Part shown: positions 12,410 through 32,178 of the stretch, one piece after another
Layout of the letters: every line of letters begins with the position of its first letter
How positions within the stretch are numbered: the first letter of the stretch is position 1
NCBI RefSeq assembly: GCF_036174265.1
Contig: NZ_CP108055.1
Coordinates: 372,001 to 436,000 of the forward strand
Length of the DNA stretch: 64,000 nucleotides
Source: Streptomyces sp. NBC_00285
GTDB lineage: Bacteria; Actinomycetota; Actinomycetes; Streptomycetales; Streptomycetaceae
Direction: 5' to 3'
Made by a program: the position numbers and the translations under genes
Notes under the pieces: model-generated
What the model was told of the DNA's origin: nothing
The model's database searches: none
The model's input: the letters and a program-made list of their open reading frames with translations, nothing else

Positions 12410-15340
12410 GTGAGTAGCGCCCCACAGCATTCGCACCCCACCGGCATGACAGGCAGAGACGGCATGCGACGCATCCCGGACCCTCGCGGCGAATTCACCG
12501 TCGTCGATGACACCCTCACCCTGCTGCGGGCCGGCCGCGGGTCCGGGCTGCTGATCACCGGGGCTCCGGGAGCCGGGCGTTCCACACTCGCCGCGAACGT
12601 CAGGGAGCGGGCACGTGACAGCGCGGCGTGCGCCTGGGTCGCGCCCGCCGACGACTCCTTTCCCACCTGGCTCGCCGCTTGGCAGAGTCTGGCCCTCCAG
12701 TTGGCCGCGGACAGGCCGGGAGGTCCCGCGGACAGACTCGCCATGTGGATGACGGCCCAGCACACCGTCGGCGACCGCCAACTCGCCGAACGCGTGACCG
12801 CCGCGTTGGCGGAGGAGAGCGCGGCAGGGCCGATCGCCCTGTTCCTCGATGACGCCCACCGGGCCGAGGCGGTGTCCGCGTCTGTCGTGGACCGGCTGCT
12901 GGACGTCGCGGGGCATCGCCCCGTGCTGATCGCCGTCACCGCGGAGACCCGGACCGCCAACGCGCGGACGGCCTTGTGGCACCGATGGCGCGACCACCCG
13001 GTCACCAGGCTGGTCGAGTTGGGCCCGCTCGGGGAGTCCGACATCCAGACGCTCATCCGGCGGACCGCACCCACCGCGCTGCCCCCGCGTACCGAGCGCG
13101 AGATAGTCCGGATCGCCCGGGGCAACCCCCGGCTGGCCCGTGAACTGACCACGCGGGAAGCCCTGGCACACAATTCGACGCGCATGCCCTCCGCGGGGCG
13201 TCTGCCGACGGACGGCCTGGCACGGCGCGTGGTGATCGAGTGCGAGCACGAGGCGGTTCTCGCCACGCTCGCCGCCGCCGGACGTGCCGTGTCGCGGTCG
13301 TTGCTGGCCCGGGCGGTGGTGGATTCTGCGGAGACGGTGTCCGAGGTCCTCAACCGCGCCGTGCACGCCGGGATCGTCACGGTCGCGGAAGGTGCGGGCG
13401 GGCAGGCAGTGCGGTTCAGTCACTCCCTCTTCGCGGAACTGGCCCTGAGCCTGCCCGGCCCGGAACGCATGGCGCGGGTCCGCGCCTCCCTGGCCCAGGC
13501 ACTGACCGAGGCGGCCTCGGACGACCTGGCGGACTGGACACCACCGGAGATCGCCTCCCACCTCATCGGTGTCGGGGATCTCTCGGCCGCCGCTGTGGAC
13601 TGGTGCCTGCGGGCGGCTCTGTGGTGCGAATCCGAGGGGAAGCCGCGCGAAGCGGTCGACTTCGCGACCTACGGCCTGCTGGGTGCCCCCGGGCACGGGA
13701 GCCGGTGCTCGCAGCTGAGGGTTCTCGGCAGGTGTGCGGACCGGACCGGGGATCACCTGACGGCCGTCAGGGCGCTGTCCGACGCCGTGGCGGCAGCCGA
13801 CGCCCTGGCCGACAGCGAGCAGTTCGCCGAAGCGGTGGCGGACCTCGCCGCCGCCCACAGGGGCGCGAAGGTGCCGGACGCGACCGGCACGGACCTGGCC
13901 CCGCTGCTTCGCACTGCGATGAGCAGGACCTCCACGGACAGCCCCGCGACAGCCGCTCGCCTGCGCGCCCTGACAGCAGAAACGCTTCACTTCGAGGACT
14001 TCCCGACCGCCCTCGCCCTCGCCGACGAGGCGGCCCGCACGGTGGTGGGGCACCGCGACGCGTGCGGCCCCGTGGCGGCGCACGTGTTGGCGACCGGGGC
14101 GTGGATCCACGGCAATCCGCAAGGCTGGGACCGAGCGCTGCTCCTCGCCCGCCAGGCACCGACCGCGGACTCGGCACCGGCCCTCAGACGGATGATCCCC
14201 GCCACGACCGGTCTGTGTCTCGCTCGGGGTGACGCGACGGAACTGGCCGCGCTTGAAGGCGAGTTCGAAACCCTCCTGCAAGCGGTCCCCGACGTGCGGG
14301 CCCGCGGCGAGTTCGACCTGTTGCGGGCCACCCGTGCCCTGCTCTCCGGCAAACAGGAAACGTTGATACGAGCACTGCGTGCCCTGCCGCCTCCCCTGTG
14401 TGAGGAAGAGCGCATCATGCCCGCGGCCATGGTGATGACCTGGACCGCTCACACCGGTCGCCGGCTCGACGTCGAACCGGCGACAGTCCGCGCTCCCGAG
14501 GGTCTGGCCCCACCGCTGGCCGCGCTGTGGGCGAGCACGGAAGCAGTGCTGGCGGCATCGGCGGGTGATCGACGGTCCCTGTCCGAAATGACCGCGCTCG
14601 CCCGTGACTTCCGCCTGGCCGGTCCTGCCAGGCCAGGACCGACCTGGTCCCAGGAGATGGCCGTACGAGCCCAAGTGGCCTCCCTGGCAGGGGACATGGC
14701 ACTGTGCCTGAGCGTGTCGGAGGCCCTGCGCCCGTACACCGACGAGTTCGCCGTGTTCGCCTCCTACCTTCCCATCGCCCCGGTCGGCTGGCTCGTCGCC
14801 GAACCCCTGCGGTACCTCGGGGACTTTCCGGCCGCCCACGACGCGAACCTGAACGCGGAGCGAGTGAGCCGCAGACTCAGGGCGCGCTGGTGGATCGCCC
14901 GATGTCTCCTCCAGCGAGCCCGCCTGTTCGACGACCGGGACCAGGTCGAGGCGCACCGCGCGCTCGACGAGGCGATCGAGATCGCCCGCGAACTCGACTC
15001 GGCCCAACTGTTCGAGGAGGCCACGAGGCTGCGCCGCCGTACCCGGGAGGACCGCGAGAACGACAGCAGTATCGTCGCCATTCACCGCGAACAACACGGT
15101 CACCAGATCCCCGTGCCGATCCCCAGGGTGCCGGGCGCGAACCATCTCACGGCCCGTGAACGGGACGTGTTCCGTCTCGCCGCGACCGGCATGCGCAACA
15201 GGGACATCGCCGCAACCCTGCATCTCAGCGTGTCGACCGTCGAGCGCCACTGCACAAGCGTCTACCGAAAGCTGGACGTGCGGAACAGGGCCCAGGCTCT
15301 GGGCGTCCTGGTCGGCGGCCAGAGCCTGACGGAAAGCTGA
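12410..15340 (+). CDS. LAL-type (AAA + LuxR HTH) transcriptional regulator
   Basis: A 976-residue large ATP-binding LuxR regulator. A Walker A site (GAPGAGRST) lies near residue 48 and a Walker B (IALFLDDAH) near 145. A long helical/TPR-like middle runs from about residue 350 to 880. The C-terminal LuxR HTH is LTARERDVFRLAATGMRNRD followed by STVERHCTSVYRKLDV. LAL proteins activate antibiotic and sugar genes in Streptomyces. GTG 12410 is the longest start; ATG 12446 or 12464 would trim the N-terminus by a dozen or more residues. The target is unknown; no cluster touches it directly on this side. Confidence 0.85.
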   Translation: MSSAPQHSHPTGMTGRDGMRRIPDPRGEFTVVDDTLTLLRAGRGSGLLITGAPGAGRSTLAANVRERARDSAACAWVAPADDSFPTWLAAWQSLALQLAADRPGGPADRLAMWMTAQHTVGDRQLAERVTAALAEESAAGPIALFLDDAHRAEAVSASVVDRLLDVAGHRPVLIAVTAETRTANARTALWHRWRDHPVTRLVELGPLGESDIQTLIRRTAPTALPPRTEREIVRIARGNPRLARELTTREALAHNSTRMPSAGRLPTDGLARRVVIECEHEAVLATLAAAGRAVSRSLLARAVVDSAETVSEVLNRAVHAGIVTVAEGAGGQAVRFSHSLFAELALSLPGPERMARVRASLAQALTEAASDDLADWTPPEIASHLIGVGDLSAAAVDWCLRAALWCESEGKPREAVDFATYGLLGAPGHGSRCSQLRVLGRCADRTGDHLTAVRALSDAVAAADALADSEQFAEAVADLAAAHRGAKVPDATGTDLAPLLRTAMSRTSTDSPATAARLRALTAETLHFEDFPTALALADEAARTVVGHRDACGPVAAHVLATGAWIHGNPQGWDRALLLARQAPTADSAPALRRMIPATTGLCLARGDATELAALEGEFETLLQAVPDVRARGEFDLLRATRALLSGKQETLIRALRALPPPLCEEERIMPAAMVMTWTAHTGRRLDVEPATVRAPEGLAPPLAALWASTEAVLAASAGDRRSLSEMTALARDFRLAGPARPGPTWSQEMAVRAQVASLAGDMALCLSVSEALRPYTDEFAVFASYLPIAPVGWLVAEPLRYLGDFPAAHDANLNAERVSRRLRARWWIARCLLQRARLFDDRDQVEAHRALDEAIEIARELDSAQLFEEATRLRRRTREDRENDSSIVAIHREQHGHQIPVPIPRVPGANHLTARERDVFRLAATGMRNRDIAATLHLSVSTVERHCTSVYRKLDVRNRAQALGVLVGGQSLTES

Positions 15341-18195: not shown

Positions 18196-20085
18196 TCACC
18201 GGTCCTTGGCCAGGGCGACGAGTTCGGCGAACAGCCCTCCGGCGTATTCAAGGTCCTCGTACCTGCCCTGCTCGACTACTCGGCCCTTGTCCATGACGAG
18301 GATGCGGTCGGCGAGCCGCGTGTTCTCGAGTTGGTGGGTGACGACGATCGTCATGCGCTCGGCGGCGATCCGCTTGATCTCCAGGAAGATGGCGTGCTCG
18401 CCGCGGGCATCCATCTGCGAGGTCGGCTCATCCAAGATCAGGAGCGGGGTCTGCCGGTAGAGCGCGCGGCCGCACACGAGTCGCTGCCACTGCCCTCCGG
18501 ACAACTCGGCGCCACCGAACAGCTCCTTGGCGAGGAGGGTGTCGAGCTGGTGGGGCAGCTTCTCGATCGCTTCCCGCATACCGACGGCGTCGACGACGTC
18601 CCACACCGGCCCGTCGTCGTGCGTCTTGGGCTGGCCGAGGGTGATGTTCTCGCGGGCGCGCAGGGGCCAGCACGCGAACCCCTGCGGGACGAGCGCGGTG
18701 CGCTTCCACACAGTGTCGGGGGCGGCCTGGGCAAGGTCGATGCCGTCCCACAGAACACGGCCCTTGTCGGCGAGGAGAATGCCGGTGAGGAGCTTGGCCA
18801 GGGTTGACTTGCCCGAGCCGTTCTCACCGACGATCGCCAGGATCTCACCGCGGCGGAGCGTGAGCGAGACCCCCGCGACGGCTGCTTCCTCCTTGCCGGG
18901 GTACTGGTACACGACCTCGTCGAGGCGGATCTCGTCCACGCGTTCCGGGATGGTCAATTCCCCTCGCTTGGGGGCGCGTTCGGTGGCCATGTCGAGGAAG
19001 GACCTCATGTCGGCCAGGTAGAGCGAGGTGTGGAACATCGCGGCGCCGTGGATGACGAACTGGGAGAGCGAGGCCAGTGTGGTCTGGACGGCGACCAGGG
19101 CGGTGGCCGCGACGGGCAGGGCGACCCGGCCGGTGGTGGCCAGCCAGGCGAGGGTGGCCCAGGTACCCAGCTGGAAGATCCCGCCCAGGGCGCTGGTGGC
19201 CAGGACGATGCGGAGCATCCGCGGGGCTGCGGTCACGGTGCGCTCATCGATCCGGTCGGACAGGGCGCGGTACCAGTAGATGAGGTAGTCGGTCATGCCG
19301 TTGGCGCGGACCTCGTCGCCGTAGCGGGAGTAGGTGGCCCACCAGCGCATCATGGAGCGCACATTGCGGTCGCCGACGTTGAGGTAGTGGGTCTCGTAGT
19401 CCACGCGTGCGGACAGCACTGCTCCGGCGCCGGCCGGGAGCACGGCCAGCAGGAGAAGCGGCAGCATCAGCGGGTGCAGTGCGGTGATGACCCCGCTCGC
19501 GGCGATCATGCGGATCAGGGCGGACATGAACCGCTGGGCGTCCTGCACCATCATCCGGGTCCGGGTGACGCCGACTTCGGCGGCCTCCTGCCGGTCGGCG
19601 AATCCGTCCTCGCCGTACGCGGCTGACTCCACGCGGCACACGGCGGCGACGAGGGCGACGTCCGCCTCGGTCATCAGCAGAGGTGTGATCCGTCCGTCGG
19701 CGTACGAGGACAGGGCTCCGCTGATGCGGCCGATGCCCGCAGCTGTCGTCACCACCACCAGGGCGGGCAGTGCGGCGTGCAGACGTCCGGAAACCGTCCC
19801 GGTGGCGAGGAGATGGATCATCGCCTGGGCGGTGAAGGCGAGGACGACGGCGGCCGCGATGCCGACGAGCAACTGGCAGGCCAGGAGCAGCACGACGCCG
19901 GTCCTGTCGACGGCCCACGCCATCCGCGCGGTGTGCCCGAGCACCGAGGGAAGACGTCGGCACATCGCTCCGAAACTGGCGTCCGCCAGTGGGTTCTTCC
20001 CGTACTTGCCCTCGAAGGTGATGGCGGCCGGGGGTGGAGGGGGCGGCGTCTCCTCGTTTGCAGTCGAGGCGTCAGTCACAGTCAC
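18196..20085 (-). CDS. ABC transporter, fused permease and ATPase (lanthipeptide exporter candidate)
   Basis: A 629-residue half-transporter. Five to six membrane segments lie between about residues 60 and 330. The nucleotide-binding domain starts near 380, with Walker A GENGSGKST, signature LSGGQWQR and Walker B LLILDEPTSQ; a switch histidine is in VVTHQ. GTG 20085 follows GGAGGG by six bases, and an upstream open extension is not needed. There is no N-terminal C39 peptidase domain, so it cannot cut the leader itself. It is the last gene of the FxLD lanthipeptide cluster in the direction of transcription and is the likely exporter. Part of the membrane region (PPPPPP near the N-terminus) is proline-rich. 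Confidence 0.87.
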   Translation of the reverse strand: MTVTDASTANEETPPPPPPAAITFEGKYGKNPLADASFGAMCRRLPSVLGHTARMAWAVDRTGVVLLLACQLLVGIAAAVVLAFTAQAMIHLLATGTVSGRLHAALPALVVVTTAAGIGRISGALSSYADGRITPLLMTEADVALVAAVCRVESAAYGEDGFADRQEAAEVGVTRTRMMVQDAQRFMSALIRMIAASGVITALHPLMLPLLLLAVLPAGAGAVLSARVDYETHYLNVGDRNVRSMMRWWATYSRYGDEVRANGMTDYLIYWYRALSDRIDERTVTAAPRMLRIVLATSALGGIFQLGTWATLAWLATTGRVALPVAATALVAVQTTLASLSQFVIHGAAMFHTSLYLADMRSFLDMATERAPKRGELTIPERVDEIRLDEVVYQYPGKEEAAVAGVSLTLRRGEILAIVGENGSGKSTLAKLLTGILLADKGRVLWDGIDLAQAAPDTVWKRTALVPQGFACWPLRARENITLGQPKTHDDGPVWDVVDAVGMREAIEKLPHQLDTLLAKELFGGAELSGGQWQRLVCGRALYRQTPLLILDEPTSQMDARGEHAIFLEIKRIAAERMTIVVTHQLENTRLADRILVMDKGRVVEQGRYEDLEYAGGLFAELVALAKDR

Positions 20086-20344: not shown

Positions 20345-20384
20345 CCAAGATCATTCTTGCCCAATTGGGCAAGAATGATCTTGG
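20345..20384. repeat. 40-bp perfect palindrome at a gene end
   Basis: CCAAGATCATTCTTGCCCAA followed directly by its exact complement, with no spacer. It covers the last codons and stop (20351) of the TPR-like gene. It may act as a terminator or a processing hairpin before the ABC gene; no U-tract follows on the minus strand. Confidence 0.8.
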
Positions 20385-21484
20385 AGAGCAACGCTTTCCC
20401 GGATGGTGTGATCGCTGGTACGCACCGCATGGTCCAGTTGGTCACGCACCTCATCGGGGATGCTTCCTGCTCCGAGTGCGCAGGCGGTGAGGAGAGTTCG
20501 GCAGTCCTGTGCCTCTCGATCGGTGGCGAGGGCGGCACACAGGGGGTGTGCCAGGATCTCTCGCGCGGCATAGCCGTCGGAGGTCTTGATCGCCCTTCGG
20601 TGCAACTCCTCGACCACGAGGCGTGCTTCAGGCCCTTCGGGCAAGGTGAACAGGTCCAGCGTGGCGAGCCCGAGCCGCGTGTTGAACACGGTCAGGTCGT
20701 CCCCGTCCAGAGCCCCGAGGTGCTTGGTCACCAGGTTCTGCAGGGTGTGTTGCCAAGGCAGTCCTGCGGTTCGGCGGCACACGATGCTCAGGCAGTCGGT
20801 CACGGCGACTTCCCAAGGTTCACCAGGCTTCGTGTCGGCCAGGAGGCTGTCAGCACGGACGGTGTCTCCGACGGTGAGAGCGGCGAGGACGGCGACCTGG
20901 CGGCCGTCGAGCATGCGCTGTCCGACTCCGTGGTGTGCTTCGACGTGGGCGAGTGCTTCAGTCCAGCGGCCGGCAGTGGTCAGCGCGCGCGTTCCGTCAG
21001 CGAGTAGAACTCGCCATAGCCAGGCGCGGACCTCTTGGCGGTCTCTGGCTGTTGAGGTGAGGCCGGATGGCACGGCCACGTCCTCGAACAAGGTGGTAGG
21101 GGTGTTGGTGCTGACCGCATCGAACAACTGGAGGAGCGTACGGCGGCCGTCGTCGTAGTGCCCGGCGCGGATGGCGAGGCGAGCGAGGTTGACGATGGGT
21201 TCTAAGGCTCGGATCGCGGCCTTACCGGGCAAGGGAGCGGCCTCTAGGTAAGCGGCTGCGTGCTGGTGGCACAGCGTGTGGGCCATGTCCGGCACACCGG
21301 CGTCGGAGGCGATCAGCGCGGCCTGGTTGTAGACCGTGGAGGCCATGCTCGCATCGCCCGTCTTTGCCGCGCTGTCGGCGAGTTCGACGAGCGCACGAAC
21401 ACCCTGGGGCAGGGGGAGGCAGGCCGGGCGGGGGCGAGCGATGAGGGGGAAGCGCCGGGCCAGGGCGTCAGGGATTATCCACAC
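20351..21484 (-). CDS. TPR-like helical protein of the lanthipeptide locus, unknown role
   Basis: A 377-residue, all-helical protein from GTG 21484, which lies inside the end of the preceding gene (17-bp overlap). The repeated helix pairs (ALVELADSAAKTGDASMAST, LARLAIRAGHYDDGRRTLLQ, TTAGRWTEALAHVEAHHGVG) look like degenerate TPRs seen in Streptomyces XRE/SARP-type regulators, but no HTH is visible. It could be a scaffold or a signalling protein. The last seven codons are encoded by half of a perfect palindrome. Its place between the TIGR03891-type gene and the exporter suggests it belongs to the cluster. Confidence 0.6.
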   Translation of the reverse strand: MWIIPDALARRFPLIARPRPACLPLPQGVRALVELADSAAKTGDASMASTVYNQAALIASDAGVPDMAHTLCHQHAAAYLEAAPLPGKAAIRALEPIVNLARLAIRAGHYDDGRRTLLQLFDAVSTNTPTTLFEDVAVPSGLTSTARDRQEVRAWLWRVLLADGTRALTTAGRWTEALAHVEAHHGVGQRMLDGRQVAVLAALTVGDTVRADSLLADTKPGEPWEVAVTDCLSIVCRRTAGLPWQHTLQNLVTKHLGALDGDDLTVFNTRLGLATLDLFTLPEGPEARLVVEELHRRAIKTSDGYAAREILAHPLCAALATDREAQDCRTLLTACALGAGSIPDEVRDQLDHAVRTSDHTIRESVALQDHSCPIGQE

Positions 21485-22298
21485 GGTCCGCGACGCTCCT
21501 TCCCGTGGTGGGGTCCGGGCCGAAGACAACGGCTTTCGCGGCGGCGGCGAGGGCGGCCTGGGTGGCGTAAGGCAGGCCGATGCGGTTCCAGGCAAACAGC
21601 ACGTGATGGGCGAGCACGTCACGCAGCCCGCGGTGAAGCAACCCCAGCTCCATGAGGTGGGCCAGATCCCGCCCGGCGTCGCGATAGGCGCGGGCCCAGT
21701 CCGCAAGGTGAGCCAGCGGCCCGCCGGTACGCATCAACTCGTCCCCGTTCACGGAGATCAACCGGTGTACGGCAGCTTGGAGTTGCTCGCGCCTCTCCGG
21801 TGTGGCACCTGGGGGCGTCTCGCGGTGGGCGCCCACGCGGGCCCAGACGTCGCCTTGTTCGTACCAGTCCAGCCCGGCGGAGCGCATCAGGATGCTGCAC
21901 AGCATCAGGGACGTCTCGCGCCGGTGCAGGCCGCCCTTGCGCTGAAGGTGTTCGAGCAGACTGCGGCTGTCGCGGTGAAAAAGGCGGTGCGCGCTGGCCA
22001 TGGCTTCGGTGCCACCGAAGGCATGCTCTTCGGGTTCGTAGACGATCTCCGTCCACGCTGTGATGGCCCTCTCGGCAATCAGCGTGTCGAGACTCTGGGC
22101 TATGTGCTCTGCTCCTCCGGCGGCGGGCAGGTAGCGCACCCGCCAGCACGGGTGCTTGCGGATGATGAACCACCGGGCCAGGGCGCCTTCGTCCTCGCCC
22201 ACGCGCAGTATGGGGGCGAGTCGGGACACGGCGATGGTCTCGGCGTTCTCCCATTCCGGGAACACTAGATTGGCCTGGCACCAGGCCGGCAGAGTCAT
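21468..22298 (-). CDS. Stand-alone SpaB C-terminal-like / thiopeptide-type biosynthesis protein
   Basis: A 276-residue protein matching the TIGR03891 (thiopeptide-type bacteriocin) / SpaB-C family. It has RWFIIRKHPCWRVRYLPAAG near residue 43, WTEIVYEPEEHAFGG near 82, and MASAHRLFHRDSRSLLEHL near 100. The same fold forms the glutamate-elimination half of LanB enzymes. The neighbouring LanB already contains its own copy, so this is a second, separate one. It could assist elimination or act on a different residue. The product is cytoplasmic. Confidence 0.82.
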   Translation of the reverse strand: MTLPAWCQANLVFPEWENAETIAVSRLAPILRVGEDEGALARWFIIRKHPCWRVRYLPAAGGAEHIAQSLDTLIAERAITAWTEIVYEPEEHAFGGTEAMASAHRLFHRDSRSLLEHLQRKGGLHRRETSLMLCSILMRSAGLDWYEQGDVWARVGAHRETPPGATPERREQLQAAVHRLISVNGDELMRTGGPLAHLADWARAYRDAGRDLAHLMELGLLHRGLRDVLAHHVLFAWNRIGLPYATQAALAAAAKAVVFGPDPTTGRSVADRVDNP

Positions 22299-22399
22299 CG
22301 GGGGCCTCCGCGGTGGTCGAGTGCGAGATGCCGGCGTTCGCCGTTGCGGCCGCCGTCACCGTCGATGTTCCACACCGCAGCGGTCACGAGGTCGGTCAC
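22295..22399 (-). CDS. 34-aa small open frame, possibly a truncated EEP-family head
   Basis: GTG 22399 to TGA 22295 encodes VTDLVTAAVWNIDGDGGRNG and 14 more residues. The opening resembles the first strand of endonuclease/exonuclease/phosphatase proteins. It ends in a 4-bp overlap with the next start, the pattern of a translated gene. It may be only a leader that couples translation. Confidence 0.3.
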   Translation of the reverse strand: MTDLVTAAVWNIDGDGGRNGERRHLALDHRGGPR

Positions 22400-22436
22400 T
22401 TCAGACCTTTCGGTATCGGTACGGATCGGCGCGGTA

Positions 22437-23681
22437 TCACGCCAGAGCGAGGAAGGTGTCCCAGTGCGGGGCGGGCGCACGGCCCGTGCCCACGGTGTGC
22501 AGAGCGAGTGCTGCTCCGGCTGTTCCATCGAGGAGTTCCGGGTTGGGGTCGCTCTGGCTGAGCGCGGTGATCAGGCGGTCGGTCAGCCGCGGCAGCTCGG
22601 CGCTGATCTCGGGGTTGTCCGTCTCGGTGGCCATGCGCCATGCCGCGTGCAGGAGTCCCGCCATGCCGTGGCACAGCCCGGTCTCGGGGAGCGTGTCCAG
22701 TTGGAGGGGGTCTTGCAGTGCGGAGAGGATGGCGGTCTCGGCCATCGCGACGCGTGCCGGGTCTCCGAGGGCTAGTCCGGCCAGCTGCTGGGCACGGGCG
22801 GTGCCGCTGACGCCGTAGCACCAGGACGGCCGGGGCCGAAGCGAGGAATGGACCTGGTCGTCGGTCACCTGCTGGATCGAGAGGTGTCCCGGCCACCAAA
22901 GCGCGGTCTCGTCGCCTTGCCGCCACTGGTCCGTCCAGGAGCAGATCCTCGCGATCGCGTCGGCCGTGCCGGGCACAGTCAGCCCGCCGAGCAGGGCCTG
23001 CGAGAGGACGGCGAGGGTGGAGCCGATGCCGTGGGCGAGCCCGATGTTGCCGTGCCCGCCGGGGTAGTCGGGATGGAGGACGCCGCTGGGGGCGATGTCT
23101 GTCCACCACGGCGGCAGCCCGGCCGGGTCGGGGATGTGCTCGGTCAGGCGTACCAGGTAGGCGATTACGTCCGAGGTGATTGCGTGGTGCGGGTGGCGGC
23201 TGAGGTGATAGGCGCCCAGGCCGGACAGGCCGCGGATCAGGTCGAACTCTTCCATGAGAGGGCGCTCGGCACGGGTGATGCGCTGGTGGGCGGCGGCCAG
23301 CCGGTTGCGGGTGAGGGTGAGGGTGGCGGTGTCCAGACGGGCAAGGACGGGCAGGTAGCGGCTCGATGTGCTGGCTGCCCGATGCATCACGTACGCGAGG
23401 GCGGGAGCGCCGAAGTACAGGTTTGCGTTGGCTGCGGCGCTGACTTCACCTTGCGCGGCCGCCTTCAGCCAGGCGTGTGCGGTGGACCAGTCTCCGTGCC
23501 CGGTCCTGGCGCGCTCGATGTGCAGCAGGGCGATGCCCGAGGCTCCACCCGCCAGTGACTGGGGCCAGGACCGGCCGCCGTCGGGGCGTCCGCCGGGCCA
23601 CGCGGTGCTCGGGTCGGCCAGCGCGGCGGCCAGATGGTCGACGGTTTCCAGTGCGGTGAGAGCGGGAGCGGTGGTGATCAC
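22437..23681 (-). CDS. lanC: Lanthipeptide cyclase LanC
   Basis: A 414-residue zinc enzyme that adds cysteine thiols to dehydrated residues to form lanthionine rings. The toroid landmarks are present: GGHGNIGLAHGIG near residue 220, SWCYGVSGTARAQQL near 288 (first zinc Cys), and GLCHGMAGLLH near 338 (second zinc Cys and zinc His). All metal ligands are intact. GTG 23681 overlaps the lanB stop by four bases (GTGA) and has GGAG six bases upstream, so it is translated with LanB. The length is normal for a class I LanC. Confidence 0.92.
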   Translation of the reverse strand: MITTAPALTALETVDHLAAALADPSTAWPGGRPDGGRSWPQSLAGGASGIALLHIERARTGHGDWSTAHAWLKAAAQGEVSAAANANLYFGAPALAYVMHRAASTSSRYLPVLARLDTATLTLTRNRLAAAHQRITRAERPLMEEFDLIRGLSGLGAYHLSRHPHHAITSDVIAYLVRLTEHIPDPAGLPPWWTDIAPSGVLHPDYPGGHGNIGLAHGIGSTLAVLSQALLGGLTVPGTADAIARICSWTDQWRQGDETALWWPGHLSIQQVTDDQVHSSLRPRPSWCYGVSGTARAQQLAGLALGDPARVAMAETAILSALQDPLQLDTLPETGLCHGMAGLLHAAWRMATETDNPEISAELPRLTDRLITALSQSDPNPELLDGTAGAALALHTVGTGRAPAPHWDTFLALA

Positions 23682-26581
23682 GGTGTACTCCTTGCGCGGG
23701 CCGTCCAGCTGAGGGCAGCGGCTCTGGCCAGGTGAAGGTGGGTGCGTTCCTCGGGCAGTCCCGGCCCGTGCATCCGGACGTGGTGGAGGTGCAACAGGTC
23801 CGGCAGCAGTTCGTCCGGACGGAAGGCCGTGTCCGTGAGCGCGCGGCGGTAGTCGGCCAGTGCCCCACGCCGCGCGGACCAGGCCGCGCTGACGTCCTCG
23901 CTCAGGCCGGCCGAGGGCATGTTCACCAGGTCGACGGCTTGGCGGTAGACGGTGCGGGGCGGGGCGTCCGGGTCTGTGCGCGTGTGCTCGATCAGCCACT
24001 GCATCGCCGCGGTGCTGTCGCCGAGCACGCCCACGGCGATGTCCACCATGCTCGCGGCGGTCACTGCGCGAAGGTCGGGGACCTCCGTTCCGCTCTGGGC
24101 AGCGAGCTGGGCTACGGCGGCGGCGGAGTCGGCGGCGAAGTACCGTTCGGCCGCGTCGAGGGCGGTGGGGCCGCCGAATCGGGCGGTCTCCGGGTGGTAG
24201 GTCTCCACACCGGCGTGCGTGATCAGACCGTGTCGCCGCAGGCGGCGCGTCCACTCCCCGATCGTCTCGAAAACGGCGCCGAGGGTCCCGCGCTGGTAGG
24301 TCAGGCGGAGGCGAAGGTGGTCGTCAGGGTCGCGATAGCGGATGAACCACCATGGAGGACCGTCCAGTTCGTCCAGCAGGGCCGCCAGGTGCCGGGTCAG
24401 GATGGGGTTCTGCCGGTCGCGATGGCCATGGAGGTGAAGGGAGATGCGGTTCTCGCATCCGGGCAGGTGACCGTGCTCCCGATTGACCGCGCGGCCCGCC
24501 ACGCGGACGGGGATGATGTTCTGCTCGGTGCTCAGAGGGATGACGACTTCGTGGGCACGGCCTCCGGTCCAGCCCAGGTCCTTCGCACATGGTGCCGGGC
24601 ACAGCGTCACGGTGCCGTCGCGGTCCAGGTGGACGCGCAGCAGGGCCCGGTGGGACGGCTCCGCCAGGTCCAGGGCCATGCGCTGGTCGTCCTCGCTCAG
24701 GTACACCTGCTCAGGGAGGTGGACCTCGCGGCGCCAGCGGGTCAGGGCGTCGTCCCACTGCGGCCATGATGCGGATGTGGGAGGCAGGTCCTCTCGCGTC
24801 AGGAGCCAGCGGGCTGGGGACAGGATCGTCCGGCCGTAGCGCAACGCGGGCAGGAACGGCAGGCTGGACGCGGCCGTCCCCCACCTGAATCCGGTGCAGG
24901 GGACGGCCAACGCAGCGGGCGCCTCCGTCAGGAACCGGCACAGCGGGTGCGAGTGGTGGCCCAGGTCAACGGCGTTGAGCAGCAGCGTGTGGACGGGGCG
25001 GCGGTGGGACAGCGAGACGAGGTGCAACTGTTCGGCGTCGGCGGTGACCGCGAGGTCTGTGACGGGAACGAGGCGGGTGTCCGGGCTGTGGTAGTCGCCG
25101 AGCGAGATCACCCACTCGGTCGCCTGCGGGGCGCGGGCGACGTTCTCGGTTGGCGCCGACAGAGGGGTGGAGCTGATCTGCGCGCTGAGCGCGCCTTGAT
25201 GCACTGGAGGTAAAGCGCCGTAGGTCTCGGTCATGCGGCGGCGGTCTTCGTCGTCGAGCAGATGCAGGAAGCGTCCGGTGGTCGCTCCGGCCGAGCGCGC
25301 CACCCCGACCACGTGCAGGGTGAACTCCCCCTGCTGGAGGGCGGCGACGCTTTCGGCGTCAATACGGATGGTCAGCTCCGTGCTCGGCTGGATGGGACGG
25401 CCCGGATCGACGGTGGACAGGTCCTCGATCGCCGCATCGTCGAGCTGGATTTCAAGGCGGCGCTGCATGCCGGCGGTGTGCGCGAGTTTGATGAGGCGGC
25501 CGACACGGGCGGGCAGCGGGGAAGCCGTCGGCGCGGCAGTGGCACCGAGGTAGCCGGGCGGATAGCCGAGCACGTCGATCGCGTCCAGGACGGGGACGGC
25601 CGCCCGCGGCCCGTACCGCTCCAGGAAGCGGCGATGCCACTCGGCCCAGCCGGTCAAGGACGCTTGTGGCGCGAGGCGGATGAGCGCCTTCGCTGCCTCT
25701 GCCGCCTCCTGCACGACGGCCGTAGGTACGGTCAGGTCCCAGTCCACCCGCAGGTCGAGCGCGGGCCTGGGGGTGGACCGGATCTCTGCTGCCTCCGTGG
25801 GCGGGAGGTGGGCTGCCTGTTCGACGAGGGCGGTGAGCGGGTCGGTGACCGTCATCGCCTGCCGGAGGCTCGTGAGAAGGACCCGTTGCCTGACCAGGTC
25901 TGCGATGAGGCGGTCGATCACGGAGGGCGGCGCGCTCGGGAAGCTGGTCGCCAGCTTCGCAGCGAGGTCGCTCCACAAGACCGGAGTCTGTGCCCCGCCC
26001 AGGGCTTCGCGGACCGGTGCGGTCAAGCGGATCTGCACGTGGTCGGGGCGTCGATCGAGGGTTGCGTTCGGGCGGTGCTCGATCACCACGTACCCGTCGC
26101 GTTCGATGAGGAGGCTGGAGGCGAGCAGCATCAGGCGGGGCCACAGCGCCGGGTGCTGCTCGAAGTAGTCGATGAGGACCGTACTGTGTGCCGCATCTGC
26201 TCTGGCGATGGCGCGGTGACCAGGGCCGACGCGGAGCGCGGGCACCTCACCTATTCGTACGGCCGCAATGCCGGCGAACAGGCCGAACGGCGTTGCCCGG
26301 GTGCGAGCGCGCAGCAGATAGCGCAGCACGGCGACCACCGTGCGCCGAACGGCAGGGACCGGGACCGGCCGGCCGGCGCAGATCTGCTCCACCCGGGTCG
26401 CAAGGTCGGGGCTGGCTGCCCTGACGGCGGCCGCGAAGTCGGTGTCGTTCCAGGTCTGTTGGAGCCATGCCTGCCAGGACGCCGGGTCCGCGCACGCGCC
26501 GGTGAGGTCCGGCCATACTGTCTGGCGGTCGGGACGCGATGCAGATGCCCGGACCAGTGCCGCATCAAGGTGGCGATACAT
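23678..26581 (-). CDS. lanB: Class I lanthipeptide dehydratase LanB (full length)
   Basis: A 967-residue tRNA-dependent dehydratase. The N-terminal glutamylation domain covers about residues 1-680 (RARTRATPFGLFAGIAAVRI near 92 is a family signature). The C-terminal elimination domain (SpaB-C) runs from about 700 (WWFIRYRDPDDHLRLRL near 750, then TYHPETARFGG near 795). It glutamylates Ser/Thr of the precursor using glutamyl-tRNA and then removes glutamate to give Dha/Dhb. It follows the precursor gene by 78 bp, across a GC-rich hairpin, and is coupled to lanC. Confidence 0.93.
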   Translation of the reverse strand: MYRHLDAALVRASASRPDRQTVWPDLTGACADPASWQAWLQQTWNDTDFAAAVRAASPDLATRVEQICAGRPVPVPAVRRTVVAVLRYLLRARTRATPFGLFAGIAAVRIGEVPALRVGPGHRAIARADAAHSTVLIDYFEQHPALWPRLMLLASSLLIERDGYVVIEHRPNATLDRRPDHVQIRLTAPVREALGGAQTPVLWSDLAAKLATSFPSAPPSVIDRLIADLVRQRVLLTSLRQAMTVTDPLTALVEQAAHLPPTEAAEIRSTPRPALDLRVDWDLTVPTAVVQEAAEAAKALIRLAPQASLTGWAEWHRRFLERYGPRAAVPVLDAIDVLGYPPGYLGATAAPTASPLPARVGRLIKLAHTAGMQRRLEIQLDDAAIEDLSTVDPGRPIQPSTELTIRIDAESVAALQQGEFTLHVVGVARSAGATTGRFLHLLDDEDRRRMTETYGALPPVHQGALSAQISSTPLSAPTENVARAPQATEWVISLGDYHSPDTRLVPVTDLAVTADAEQLHLVSLSHRRPVHTLLLNAVDLGHHSHPLCRFLTEAPAALAVPCTGFRWGTAASSLPFLPALRYGRTILSPARWLLTREDLPPTSASWPQWDDALTRWRREVHLPEQVYLSEDDQRMALDLAEPSHRALLRVHLDRDGTVTLCPAPCAKDLGWTGGRAHEVVIPLSTEQNIIPVRVAGRAVNREHGHLPGCENRISLHLHGHRDRQNPILTRHLAALLDELDGPPWWFIRYRDPDDHLRLRLTYQRGTLGAVFETIGEWTRRLRRHGLITHAGVETYHPETARFGGPTALDAAERYFAADSAAAVAQLAAQSGTEVPDLRAVTAASMVDIAVGVLGDSTAAMQWLIEHTRTDPDAPPRTVYRQAVDLVNMPSAGLSEDVSAAWSARRGALADYRRALTDTAFRPDELLPDLLHLHHVRMHGPGLPEERTHLHLARAAALSWTARARSTP

Positions 26582-26604
26582 ACGCCCCTCCTGGGACTGC
26601 GCGG

Positions 26605-26635
26605 TGCCCGGCCGCGCTGGTGGTGCGGCCGGGCA
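26605..26635 (-). terminator. Hairpin between precursor and lanB (attenuator)
   Basis: Perfect 11-bp arms TGCCCGGCCGC/GCGGCCGGGCA with a 9-base loop, located 25 bp after the precursor stop. A partial terminator at this place would give more precursor than enzyme message, a common RiPP operon device. Confidence 0.65.
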
Positions 26636-26659
26636 TCGCGGTGGACGCGGTCGGTGCTG

Positions 26660-26842
26660 CTACGGACAGCTCGTGCACGCGGTCGCGCACGTGGAGTTGC
26701 AGCCGTCGTCCGTCATCCTGATGAGCTGGTCCGCGGAGGGACCGCCCTCGACGATGGAGATGTCCAGGGCGAAGTCAGCGAAGTCCTCCGCATCAGCGGC
26801 CGGTTGCGCGGATATGGCCGGTCGCTCCAGTTGAACGGTCAT
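26660..26842 (-). CDS. FxLD-family lanthipeptide precursor
   Basis: A 60-residue precursor. The leader has the FxLD recognition motif as F24-A-L-D27 (DFALDISIVE), followed by GGPSADQLIRM. The core is about residues 44-60: TDDGCNSTCATACTSCP. It holds four Cys (48, 52, 56, 59) and six Ser/Thr (44, 50, 51, 54, 57, 58), allowing up to four thioether rings. Asp46-Gly47 is a classic aspartimide-prone pair and the likely target of the methyltransferase encoded next door. The FxLD family is known from genome surveys; this exact core was not recognised as any characterised product. The cleavage site is not evident. Confidence 0.9.
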   Translation of the reverse strand: MTVQLERPAISAQPAADAEDFADFALDISIVEGGPSADQLIRMTDDGCNSTCATACTSCP

Positions 26843-26908
26843 GTGTGCCTCCTTGAGGTAATGGGGGATGGTGCAAAGGTCCCGGAGCCCTCGCTGGGCC
26901 CCGGAGTC

Positions 26909-28114
26909 TCAGGTCCAGGACGCGGTGACGATCCCGTGCCGCCGCAGTACGGCGTCCTGCGGCAGAGGGGACGGAGCGGGGCCCGGCAGGTACCGGAACG
27001 TCGCAGCTCCCCGGCGACGGTGGTGTTCGGCCCAGCAACGCAGCAGCTCCGCGTACTGGTCGGCGAGGGCTTCGGCCTGCGGACCGTGCGCGATGACGCC
27101 GCTCTCGAAGCCGCCGATGGCCTCGTTGTCGCGACGGGTGCGGTAGGCGATGCTGTCCTCACTGACCAGGGCGGGCACCCCGAACTGGACTGCTGGCGTG
27201 ACCAGCCCTCGCTCGACCACGTCCTTGGCCGCGTGCAGCCGCACCGCACGCGGCAGGTTGAGCGTGAGGTACAGGTCCAGCTCGTCGGGCAGGTCCCATG
27301 CCGCCCCCGACCAGTGCACCAGCTGGGGGGTGTCCAAAGCATGGTTCAGCGCCTGCGCGTTGAGGGGCACCCGCACGTCATCGGTCTGCGCGACGACGCC
27401 CTCTCGCAGCAGCACCTTGCGTTCCTCTGCGGCGCCCTCGCCCTGCATCGGTACGAAGTGCGCCAACCGGTAGGAGCGGCTGAGCAGGCCCGCACCGTCA
27501 CGGTCGAAGGCGATCGAGCGGGTCGTGCCGCACATCGTCAGCGGAACGACGAGCCTGCCCTTCTCCGTGAGCCCGTCGATCCACGACGGGGGGACGTCCC
27601 ACGCCGCCGCGGTGACGATGATCCGGTCGTAGGGCGCTCCATCGGGGACACCCCTCTCGCCATCGGCGAGGACCGTCTTCACCTGCCGGTATCCGGCCTC
27701 GTTCAGGCACAGACGGGCACGGTCGACGATGTCGCGGTCGATGTCGACCGTGGTGACCTCACCGTCGCTGCCCACGAGTTCCTGGAGGTAGGCGGCATTG
27801 ACGCCACCCGAGCCGATCTCCAGGACCTTCATCCCGGGCGCGATGTCAGCCTGCTCCAGCATCACACCCTGAAGGTGGGCAGCGGACATGACGCTGACGT
27901 TCAGGCCGCTCTCGTCCTTCTTGACCGGCACAATCCGGTGGAGATCGTAAACGACCTCCAGGGACGCCTCCGGCGCGAACCGGTGCCGGGGCACAGCGGC
28001 GAAGGCCGCAGCAACCGAGTCGGACGTAATCGCGTCCTGGTCACGGAGCGCGCGGACCATATCCGCACGCCACACGCCGGGATCGCGATCGGTCGAGTCA
28101 TCGACAACAGGCAT
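26909..28114 (-). CDS. FxLD-system methyltransferase (PIMT-like)
   Basis: A 401-residue SAM-dependent enzyme of the protein-isoaspartate methyltransferase type that accompanies FxLD precursors (TIGR04364-like). RHRFAPEAS lies near residue 40 and SAM motif I is KVLEIGSGGVNAAYLQELV near residue 92. RIIVTAAAWDVPPSWID near 155 and the roughly 200-residue C-terminal domain typical of the FxLD group follow. Related lanthipeptide enzymes (LanS type, for example in the olivaceus OlvA system) methylate a core Asp, giving succinimide and isoaspartate. ATG 28114 begins MPVVDDSTDRD; an upstream extension to 28246 does not look coding. It directly precedes the precursor gene. Confidence 0.88.
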   Translation of the reverse strand: MPVVDDSTDRDPGVWRADMVRALRDQDAITSDSVAAAFAAVPRHRFAPEASLEVVYDLHRIVPVKKDESGLNVSVMSAAHLQGVMLEQADIAPGMKVLEIGSGGVNAAYLQELVGSDGEVTTVDIDRDIVDRARLCLNEAGYRQVKTVLADGERGVPDGAPYDRIIVTAAAWDVPPSWIDGLTEKGRLVVPLTMCGTTRSIAFDRDGAGLLSRSYRLAHFVPMQGEGAAEERKVLLREGVVAQTDDVRVPLNAQALNHALDTPQLVHWSGAAWDLPDELDLYLTLNLPRAVRLHAAKDVVERGLVTPAVQFGVPALVSEDSIAYRTRRDNEAIGGFESGVIAHGPQAEALADQYAELLRCWAEHHRRRGAATFRYLPGPAPSPLPQDAVLRRHGIVTASWT

Positions 28115-31188: not shown

Positions 31189-32178
31189 TCATCCGAGGTT
31201 CCGCTCGTGCTTCATCGCGTAGGTGCGGGCTTGCAGGAAGTCGTCCTGCCACCACCGGCTTTCGCTGACGTGCTGCCAGGGCGCGGGAGTGGCGAAGGGG
31301 CCGATCGCCGTGAACACCTCTGCCGCGCCGGGCAGGCCACAGGCAGTCAGCGTGTAGGCCAGATAGTTCAGATCCAGCAGGGAGCAGGTGCTCATGTCGG
31401 TGACGTAGGCGAACCATCCATCTCTCGCCAGCTCGACGTAGTGCCGGACCTCCTCGTTGGTCCAGAACCCAAGCGTGCTGGCGACCTGTCCGCCTGCCGT
31501 CCGCGTCCGGTAGTCCTCGACGTATGCGTACAAGGGCAGGGTCAGCAGTACGGATCCCGGCTTCGCCTGGGAGGCCACCCACCGTGTGAAGTCCACGGCT
31601 CCGTTGCCGCGGGCCTGGAAGCACTGGAGCATCCGGTGATATGCCTCCCTGTTGGACCGGTCCCGCCGGTCTACCTGCCATAGCAGCGGCCACGGTCCCC
31701 GCGGCAGCAGGGCCTCCGGCGGATGCGCCCAGTGGTCAACGGAGTGCCACTGCCTGTGGTCGACGTCCAACTGAGCGAGTGCCAACAGGCACACCCACGG
31801 AACGGGGTCAGCCGGCCAGCGGCGTGTGGCGTCCCCGCATACCGCACGTGCGGCGCTGACCCTGGGGAGCAGGGTGTGACGGTCTGCCGTGCTGCGGTGA
31901 GCGCCCACAACCCGGTGGGTCATGACGCGGGCCCGCATCATCAGGGCGTTCGCGTCTCCGGGTTCCTCCGCGCACCAGGCCGCGATGGCATCACCTTTGG
32001 CGGCGCCAGCCGCCAGGACCTGACTGCGGGACGTGCGCAGGCCCCAACTGCGGGTGTTGGCGAGCAGAGCTTTGGTGGAGAGCCAACGGTCGAGCAGGAG
32101 GTCTTCCAGAGCCAGGCGCAAGTCTTCGTCGTAACCCGCAGGATGGGAGGTCAGGGGCATGTCACTGGAGCCCGTCAC
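31189..32178 (-). CDS. Hypothetical protein (329 aa) upstream of the permease
   Basis: A helical, Trp-rich protein (PWVCLLALAQLDVDHRQWHS, then LDLNYLAYTLTACGLPGAAE) with no membrane segment or signal peptide. The alternating helices in the first half hint at TPR-type folding, as in uncharacterised Streptomyces proteins sometimes found near RiPP genes. It begins MTGSSDMPLTSH; ATG at codon 7 is an alternative. It precedes the permease by 79 bp on the same strand and may be cotranscribed. No function is assigned. Confidence 0.65.
   Translation of the reverse strand: MTGSSDMPLTSHPAGYDEDLRLALEDLLLDRWLSTKALLANTRSWGLRTSRSQVLAAGAAKGDAIAAWCAEEPGDANALMMRARVMTHRVVGAHRSTADRHTLLPRVSAARAVCGDATRRWPADPVPWVCLLALAQLDVDHRQWHSVDHWAHPPEALLPRGPWPLLWQVDRRDRSNREAYHRMLQCFQARGNGAVDFTRWVASQAKPGSVLLTLPLYAYVEDYRTRTAGGQVASTLGFWTNEEVRHYVELARDGWFAYVTDMSTCSLLDLNYLAYTLTACGLPGAAEVFTAIGPFATPAPWQHVSESRWWQDDFLQARTYAMKHERNLG

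Follow-up and report, generated by a model that had tools for sequence, protein, structure and literature searches.

A conserved FxLD lanthipeptide cluster with a PIMT-type methyltransferase and a putative stand-alone syn-glutamyl lyase in Streptomyces sp. NBC_00285

The window analyzed here, a stretch of 64,000 nucleotides from Streptomyces sp. NBC_00285, carries a lanthipeptide cluster that, judged by its gene content and by the distribution of its relatives, is widely conserved and of an already described kind. According to its translation and family match, the lanA gene encodes an FxLD family lanthipeptide precursor, and the gene set around it (Table 1) falls, at the sequence level, within the published descriptions of the TxDGC/PIMT group of class I clusters. 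It is probable that LanB and a stand-alone syn-lyase dehydrate this precursor, that LanC cyclizes it, and that the methyltransferase turns Asp46 into aspartimide/isoaspartate.

Among the class I lanthipeptides of Actinobacteria, this group is one of the commonest; Walker et al. 2020 described the largest class I families there as sharing a core Asp that is conserved and a methyltransferase of the PIMT type, with an additional elimination-domain protein beside a full-length LanB in some clusters (PMC7268733). Lee et al. 2023 counted 1,305 class I lanthipeptide clusters that encode a PIMT-type methyltransferase, most of the precursors containing TxDGC (PMC10787088). The original prediction presented the core as a plausible new compound and the family as one defined mainly by genomic surveys. 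However, TxDGC is the published hallmark, as core motif, of this large group, named "lanthimiditides" (PMC10787088; 2026 review, PMC13001092), Streptomyces canus 299MFChir4.1 has an identical core, and both OlvA and CoiA1 have been modified by their own enzymes and characterized (PMC13001092, PMC9486935). For the coi and olv clusters, neither a product from a native producer nor a leader protease was known in the 2022 account of Sarksian and van der Donk (PMC9486935), and the literature consulted on the group contains no characterized example of the sub-lineage with a stand-alone syn-lyase.

Table 1. Features of the lanthipeptide cluster and its surroundings, with positions in the window
Feature	Position	Strand	Basis
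PIMT-type (PAMT/LanSA) O-methyltransferase, 401 aa from ATG at 28114	26909..28114	minus	TIGR04364, PF01135
lanA, FxLD precursor, 60 aa	26660..26842	minus	translation, TIGR04363
GC-rich hairpin in the lanA-lanB gap	26600..26640	minus	RNA folding
lanB, full-length dehydratase, 967 aa, glutamylation and anti-type elimination domains	23678..26581	minus	PF04738 (586 bits), PF14028 (146 bits)
lanC, cyclase, 414 aa, GTG start	22437..23681	minus	PF05147 (124 bits)
Stand-alone Lant_dehydr_C protein, 276 aa, syn-glutamyl lyase signature	21468..22298	minus	PF14028 (81 bits)
TPR-like all-helical protein; start GTG 21484 or ATG 21346 (uncertain)	20351..21484	minus	operon conservation, model
ABC transporter (permease/ATPase), possible exporter, start approximate	18196..20085	minus	PF00005 (99.8 bits)

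The FxLD precursor and its relatives

Translation of the lanA gene gives MTVQLERPAISAQPAADAEDFADFALDISIVEGGPSADQLIRMTDDGCNSTCATACTSCP followed by a stop codon, with FALD at F24-D27 as the FxLD motif of the leader and a core region, TDDGCNSTCATACTSCP, at residues 44-60. The core contains the TxDGC motif (T44-D45-D46-G47-C48), four Cys (positions 48, 52, 56, and 59), and six Ser/Thr (positions 44, 50, 51, 54, 57, and 58). A ribosome-binding site, AAGGAGG, was found at 26848-26854, five bases separating its end from the ATG of lanA. The leader motif, the length of 60 residues, and the counts of Cys and Ser/Thr all agree with the original prediction, which gave no strand. The proposed search of the precursor against TIGR04363 ("FxLD family lanthipeptide") yielded 61.3 bits (E 6.2e-17, residues 23-58), the curated cut-off of this NCBIfam model being 30 bits. 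Of 392 genomes of the genus, 111 gave a score above the cut-off of the model, and none of 14 control genomes was matched; a chance open reading frame is ruled out by the score together with these genome counts. The plus strand encodes no Cys-rich precursor here, and the search for a solved structure returned only chance-level matches, to pollen allergens.

The gap between lanA and lanB contains a hairpin whose segment folds with a z of -2.94, none of 200 shuffles being equally stable; each of the eight relatives folded has a hairpin as well (z -1.89 to -6.28). This structure possibly limits the expression of the genes past lanA, which would provide more precursor than enzyme.

Relatives were collected by scanning a genome collection of 84,980 species with five precursors, which gave 30 loci belonging to Streptomyces, Actinacidiphila, Frankia, Spongiactinospora, Glycomyces, Sphaerisporangium, Stackebrandtia, Thermocatellispora, and Nocardiopsis. 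With 14 further regions, the set grew to 44 loci, 43 of which have a LanB match, 35 of these being non-redundant. Among these 35, the methyltransferase was matched in 33 and the stand-alone lyase in 32 (three are without it), and the order MT-LanA-LanB-LanC-lyase-TPR was seen in 22, a count to be read with the enrichment of the set for this order, since the loci were picked through the precursor. The gene identities, the conserved operon, the active-site residues, and the conserved core positions are direct observations.

Of the 44 loci, 34 gave a precursor match at E 1e-6, and only these served as the source of precursors, which amount to 26 distinct sequences, or 27 with that of the window. 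Asp-Gly is present in 26 of these 27, the exception being the Asp-Asn of locus L080. A profile made from the precursors of the sub-lineage itself was also used to gather a wider set, of 72 distinct precursor tails; 56 of them have [ST]xDGC, 11 have DNC, 2 have DTC, and 3 are without such a motif. Position counts were made in a 16-position frame, from which the four of the 27 precursors that did not fit it (L080, L082, L103, and L104) were left out. All 12 distinct sub-lineage cores have Ser at position 58 and either Ser or Thr at position 54, and eight of them have Thr at position 57. At the position of Ser58, the four divergent precursors carry a Thr, so this Ser marks the sub-lineage and is not shared by all clusters that have a stand-alone lyase. 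In three loci (L025, L081, and L090), more than one precursor was found, one of which has GGC (SDGGC or SSGGC) in place of xDGC and may escape or change the Asp modification.

The S. canus locus (L075), with its identical core, is also close to the window in its enzymes, with 88% identity for LanB, 92% for LanC, and 92% for the methyltransferase. It differs from the window in the distance between lanC and the lyase gene, which is about 940 bases with an open frame against about 140, and in the ABC transporter, which matches as a fragment only. A search with short core fragments, which covered the open-access full text of papers, returned a single match, in an unrelated genetics paper. The exact lanA peptide has probably not been described before, as must be true of many peptides in so large a group.

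LanB, LanC, and the putative stand-alone glutamyl lyase

LanB and LanC are encoded together with a Cys-containing precursor, which is the gene criterion for a class I lanthipeptide. The LanC sequence shows WCYG and CHG motifs, which we take to be those of the zinc site. Equivalents of the NisB glutamylation residues Y80, R83, R87, and T89 and of the anti-lyase residues R826 and H961 are present in all of the 17 aligned LanB sequences, and those of R784/R786 in 15 of them, the roles of the NisB residues being those given in PMC4341554, PMC4979651, PMC9486935, and PMC9011353. The two exceptions, L083 and L086, are distant; their LanB has no equivalents of Arg784/Arg786 and keeps Arg826 and His961, and their stand-alone lyase retains the Arg pair.

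The putative stand-alone second glutamyl lyase had been overlooked in the original prediction. The sequence criteria published for syn-lyases are a hydrophobic residue at the position of NisB Arg826, a Lys in place of the anti-lyase Tyr, and retention of Arg784/786 (PMC9486935, PMC9011353). In the 19 aligned sequences of the stand-alone protein, the window's included, Lys48, Arg53, and Arg55 are invariant, with the same spacing as K46, R51, and R53 of CoiSA (PMC9486935), and Ala93 occupies the NisB Arg826 position throughout, its column having been matched to R801 of LanB by profile comparison (probability 97.4). At the position equivalent to Lys48, LanB has a Tyr (Tyr749), which is found in 16 of the 17 aligned LanB sequences. 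Lyases of the SptBb/CoiSA type are further marked by the lack of the catalytic His (NisB H961); in the stand-alone protein two His residues, H231 (17 of 19 sequences) and H232 (18 of 19), lie in an uncertainly aligned region, neither being clearly in the H961 column. By these published criteria, a syn-glutamyl lyase is the best reading of the protein, and this second dehydration enzyme may give one ring an unusual geometry.

An AlphaFold2 model of the stand-alone protein (pLDDT 89.4), when searched with Foldseek, matched LanB elimination domains best, followed by the thiopeptide [4+2] cyclases TbtD and PbtD, the aza-cyclase, and TsrL. Thiopeptide pyridine synthases occur with a YcaO cyclodehydratase partner and an azole-containing core. 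No YcaO protein was found among the proteins scanned, which come from a part of the genes at roughly 12-33 kb of the window. The matches to these cyclases, together with the absence of the NisB Arg826 equivalent from all 19 sequences and the non-elimination role that Walker et al. 2020 raised for such proteins (PMC7268733), would fit a different cyclization reaction, like that of the thiopeptide cousins, or a non-catalytic helper. Such a role is nevertheless improbable in our view: the elimination domain of CoiSA, which has the same substitution and the conserved Lys, eliminates glutamate (PMC9486935, PMC9011353), Lys48, Arg53, and Arg55 do not vary, and the fold search places the LanB elimination domains ahead of the cyclases.

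The putative syn-glutamyl lyase also resembles SptBb of the SapT cluster (SptA/SptBa/SptBb/SptC), a lyase of the syn type in which the Lys is conserved and a hydrophobic residue stands at the Arg826 position (PMC9011353). In the SapT cluster, LanB is split, SptBa glutamylating and SptBb eliminating, whereas LanB in the window is full length with an elimination domain of its own. We also considered that the stand-alone protein might be the missing half of a split LanB, and rejected this because LanB is full length and its elimination residues are conserved.

The methyltransferase and the predicted fate of Asp46

The methyltransferase gene adjoins lanA upstream on the same strand; its open frame starts at GTG 28246, and the ATG start given in Table 1 was chosen by homology. 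The PIMT-like methyltransferase that had been noted beside the precursor matches TIGR04364 ("methyltransferase, FxLD system") with 527 bits, against a cut-off of 320 bits; of 150 genomes of the genus, 63 exceeded this threshold, and none of the 14 controls did. The PCMT domain (PF01135) covers residues 62-268 of 445, so that 177 residues lie C-terminal to it, PIMT-type lanthimiditide enzymes being characterized by a C-terminal extension of more than 100 residues (PMC10787088). A housekeeping PIMT that happens to lie beside lanA was rejected, since TIGR04364 scores well above its cut-off and the housekeeping equivalog models score below theirs. The proposal of Asp46-Gly47 as the likely target of the enzyme is supported.

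The two non-redundant loci in which no methyltransferase was matched are L063, whose contig stops next to lanA, and L071 (Streptomyces ipomoeae 91-03), which keeps the Asp-Gly core and gave no methyltransferase match at E 1e-6 with 10 kb upstream covered. Frames that look transposase-like by eye occur in the L071 DNA reaching to about 130 bases before lanA. The methyltransferase of this locus may be dispensable or recently lost, since the match is missing despite the Asp-Gly core.

All of the chemistry proposed here, the order of its steps, the ring pattern, and the stereochemistry are modeled on OlvA, CoiA1, and SapT. The olv cluster of Streptomyces olivaceus NRRL B-3009 (OlvA/OlvB/OlvC/OlvSA), compared by its published description (PMC9486935), resembles the window in having a full-length LanB, a LanC, and a separate PIMT-type methyltransferase, but is described without the additional glutamyl lyase that the window encodes as a stand-alone protein. 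OlvSA acts only on dehydrated and cyclized OlvA and methylates Asp, and the aspartimide is converted to 70-80% isoAsp (PMC13001092); this core Asp lies in the N-terminal MeLan ring, and the same fate is predicted for Asp46. The coi cluster of Streptomyces coelicolor A3(2) (CoiA1/CoiB/CoiC/CoiSA) shares with the window a full-length LanB, a second, syn-type lyase, and a PIMT-type methyltransferase, but its lyase is fused to the methyltransferase and it has three precursors, whereas the window has separate genes and one precursor. By the published residue numbers, T44, C48, T51, C52, C56, and S58 are spaced exactly as residues 43, 47, 50, 51, 55, and 57 of CoiA1, CoiA1 Thr57 corresponding to Ser58; C59 of the window is an additional Cys.

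By analogy with these systems, the FxLD leader would dock on LanB, which would glutamylate core Ser/Thr from glutamyl-tRNA and eliminate most of the glutamyl groups in an anti manner to give Dha or Z-Dhb, and the stand-alone lyase would carry out the syn elimination of at least one glutamyl-Thr to give E-Dhb. LanC would add the Cys residues to form up to four thioether rings; the spacing, equal to that of CoiA1, suggests rings T44-C48, T51-C56, and S58-C52, and the extra C59 perhaps takes residue 54. After cyclization, the methyltransferase would methylate Asp46 within the T44-C48 ring, and the resulting ester would form an aspartimide that opens mostly to isoaspartate. More tentatively, the peptide might be exported by the nearby ABC transporter and its leader cut by an unclustered protease.

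It is possible, though unlikely, that Asp46 is methylated and that the functional end state is a stable aspartimide, or an unchanged Asp after hydrolysis, and not isoaspartate. Aspartimide has been isolated intact from other RiPPs with such methyltransferases and lasso peptides hydrolyze back to Asp, but the lanthipeptide example itself, OlvA, gives predominantly isoAsp, and Gly after Asp is the usual lanthipeptide context, unlike the Thr that steers lasso peptides (PMC13001092). A further point in favor of another end state is that no mature OlvA product was known in the account of Walker et al. (PMC7268733). We thus retain isoaspartate as the predicted main form of Asp46.

Which Thr the putative syn-lyase would act on is a separate matter. 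In CoiA1, Thr57 is the residue assigned to the syn-lyase, and its T57S variant was poorly converted (PMC9486935). Since the equivalent position is Ser58 in all of the 12 distinct sub-lineage cores, the enzyme of the sub-lineage may use a Thr other than the C-terminal one of CoiA1 (44, 51, 54, or 57 where present), Thr57 being a further candidate target in the window. We advance this as a tentative suggestion with rather less than even chances; the Thr at the position equivalent to 58 in the four divergent precursors argues against it. If it holds, the product would contain four rings, the first of which would carry the aspartimide/isoAsp, and its allo-methyllanthionine would sit at a so far undescribed position, perhaps within that same ring with the modified Asp. 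Because the syn-lyase and the methyltransferase are encoded by separate genes in the window, each can be left out singly, and the invariant Ser at the proposed CoiA1 target makes the choice of Thr by the enzyme directly addressable.

That the cluster has become a silent or degenerating remnant in this strain and gives no product is very improbable. The lack of native products from coi and olv in 2022 (PMC9486935) and the silence of dmx, a related class I cluster, in its host would be in line with such a state, but lanA, lanB, lanC, and the genes of the methyltransferase and the lyase all have intact reading frames, and residues and gene order are conserved over several actinobacterial genera.

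Neighboring genes and genomic context

The TPR-like gene was matched in 27 of the 35 non-redundant loci. Its product has Pfam TPR matches below threshold only and no NCBIfam match, and its helical model (pLDDT 90.8) gave no convincing match in the PDB.

It is uncertain whether the ABC transporter belongs to the cluster. Near full-length neighbors with 83-89% identity were found in L064, L067, and L097, the L080 neighbor has 91% identity over 413 of 631 residues, and a same-strand match near the cluster occurs in six of the 35 loci, one of these matches being a short fragment and another having 34% identity. No protease turned up in the set of genes examined, a part of those at roughly 12-33 kb of the window. 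The gene at 12410-15340 on the plus strand, past the far end of the cluster, encodes a large LuxR-type regulator that contains an AAA ATPase domain.

In L075 (14403-15340) and in L097 (13567-14507), the stretch of about 940 bases between lanC and the lyase gene contains an open frame, of 343 aa in L075. The corresponding gap of the window (22299-22436) has a start that resembles the beginning of this stretch, which would fit a loss of the gene in the window.

The flanks of the cluster in L080 (Streptomyces philanthi 23Af2) are close to those of the window, with a homologue of the gene at 31189-32178 (84% identity) in addition to the ABC transporter mentioned above. Between these flanks lies a different FxLD cluster, with 35% identity for LanB, 36% for the methyltransferase, and TGDNC in the core, as if clusters had been exchanged at one chromosomal site.

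Finally, the genome from which the window comes (G000) contains a second, different FxLD cluster (L102, contig C1, 10201184-10206910) near the far end of the chromosome. Its precursor tail is ...GTGDGCAASCASSCASAV, its genes are in the order LanB-LanC-methyltransferase, and no stand-alone lyase was matched in it.
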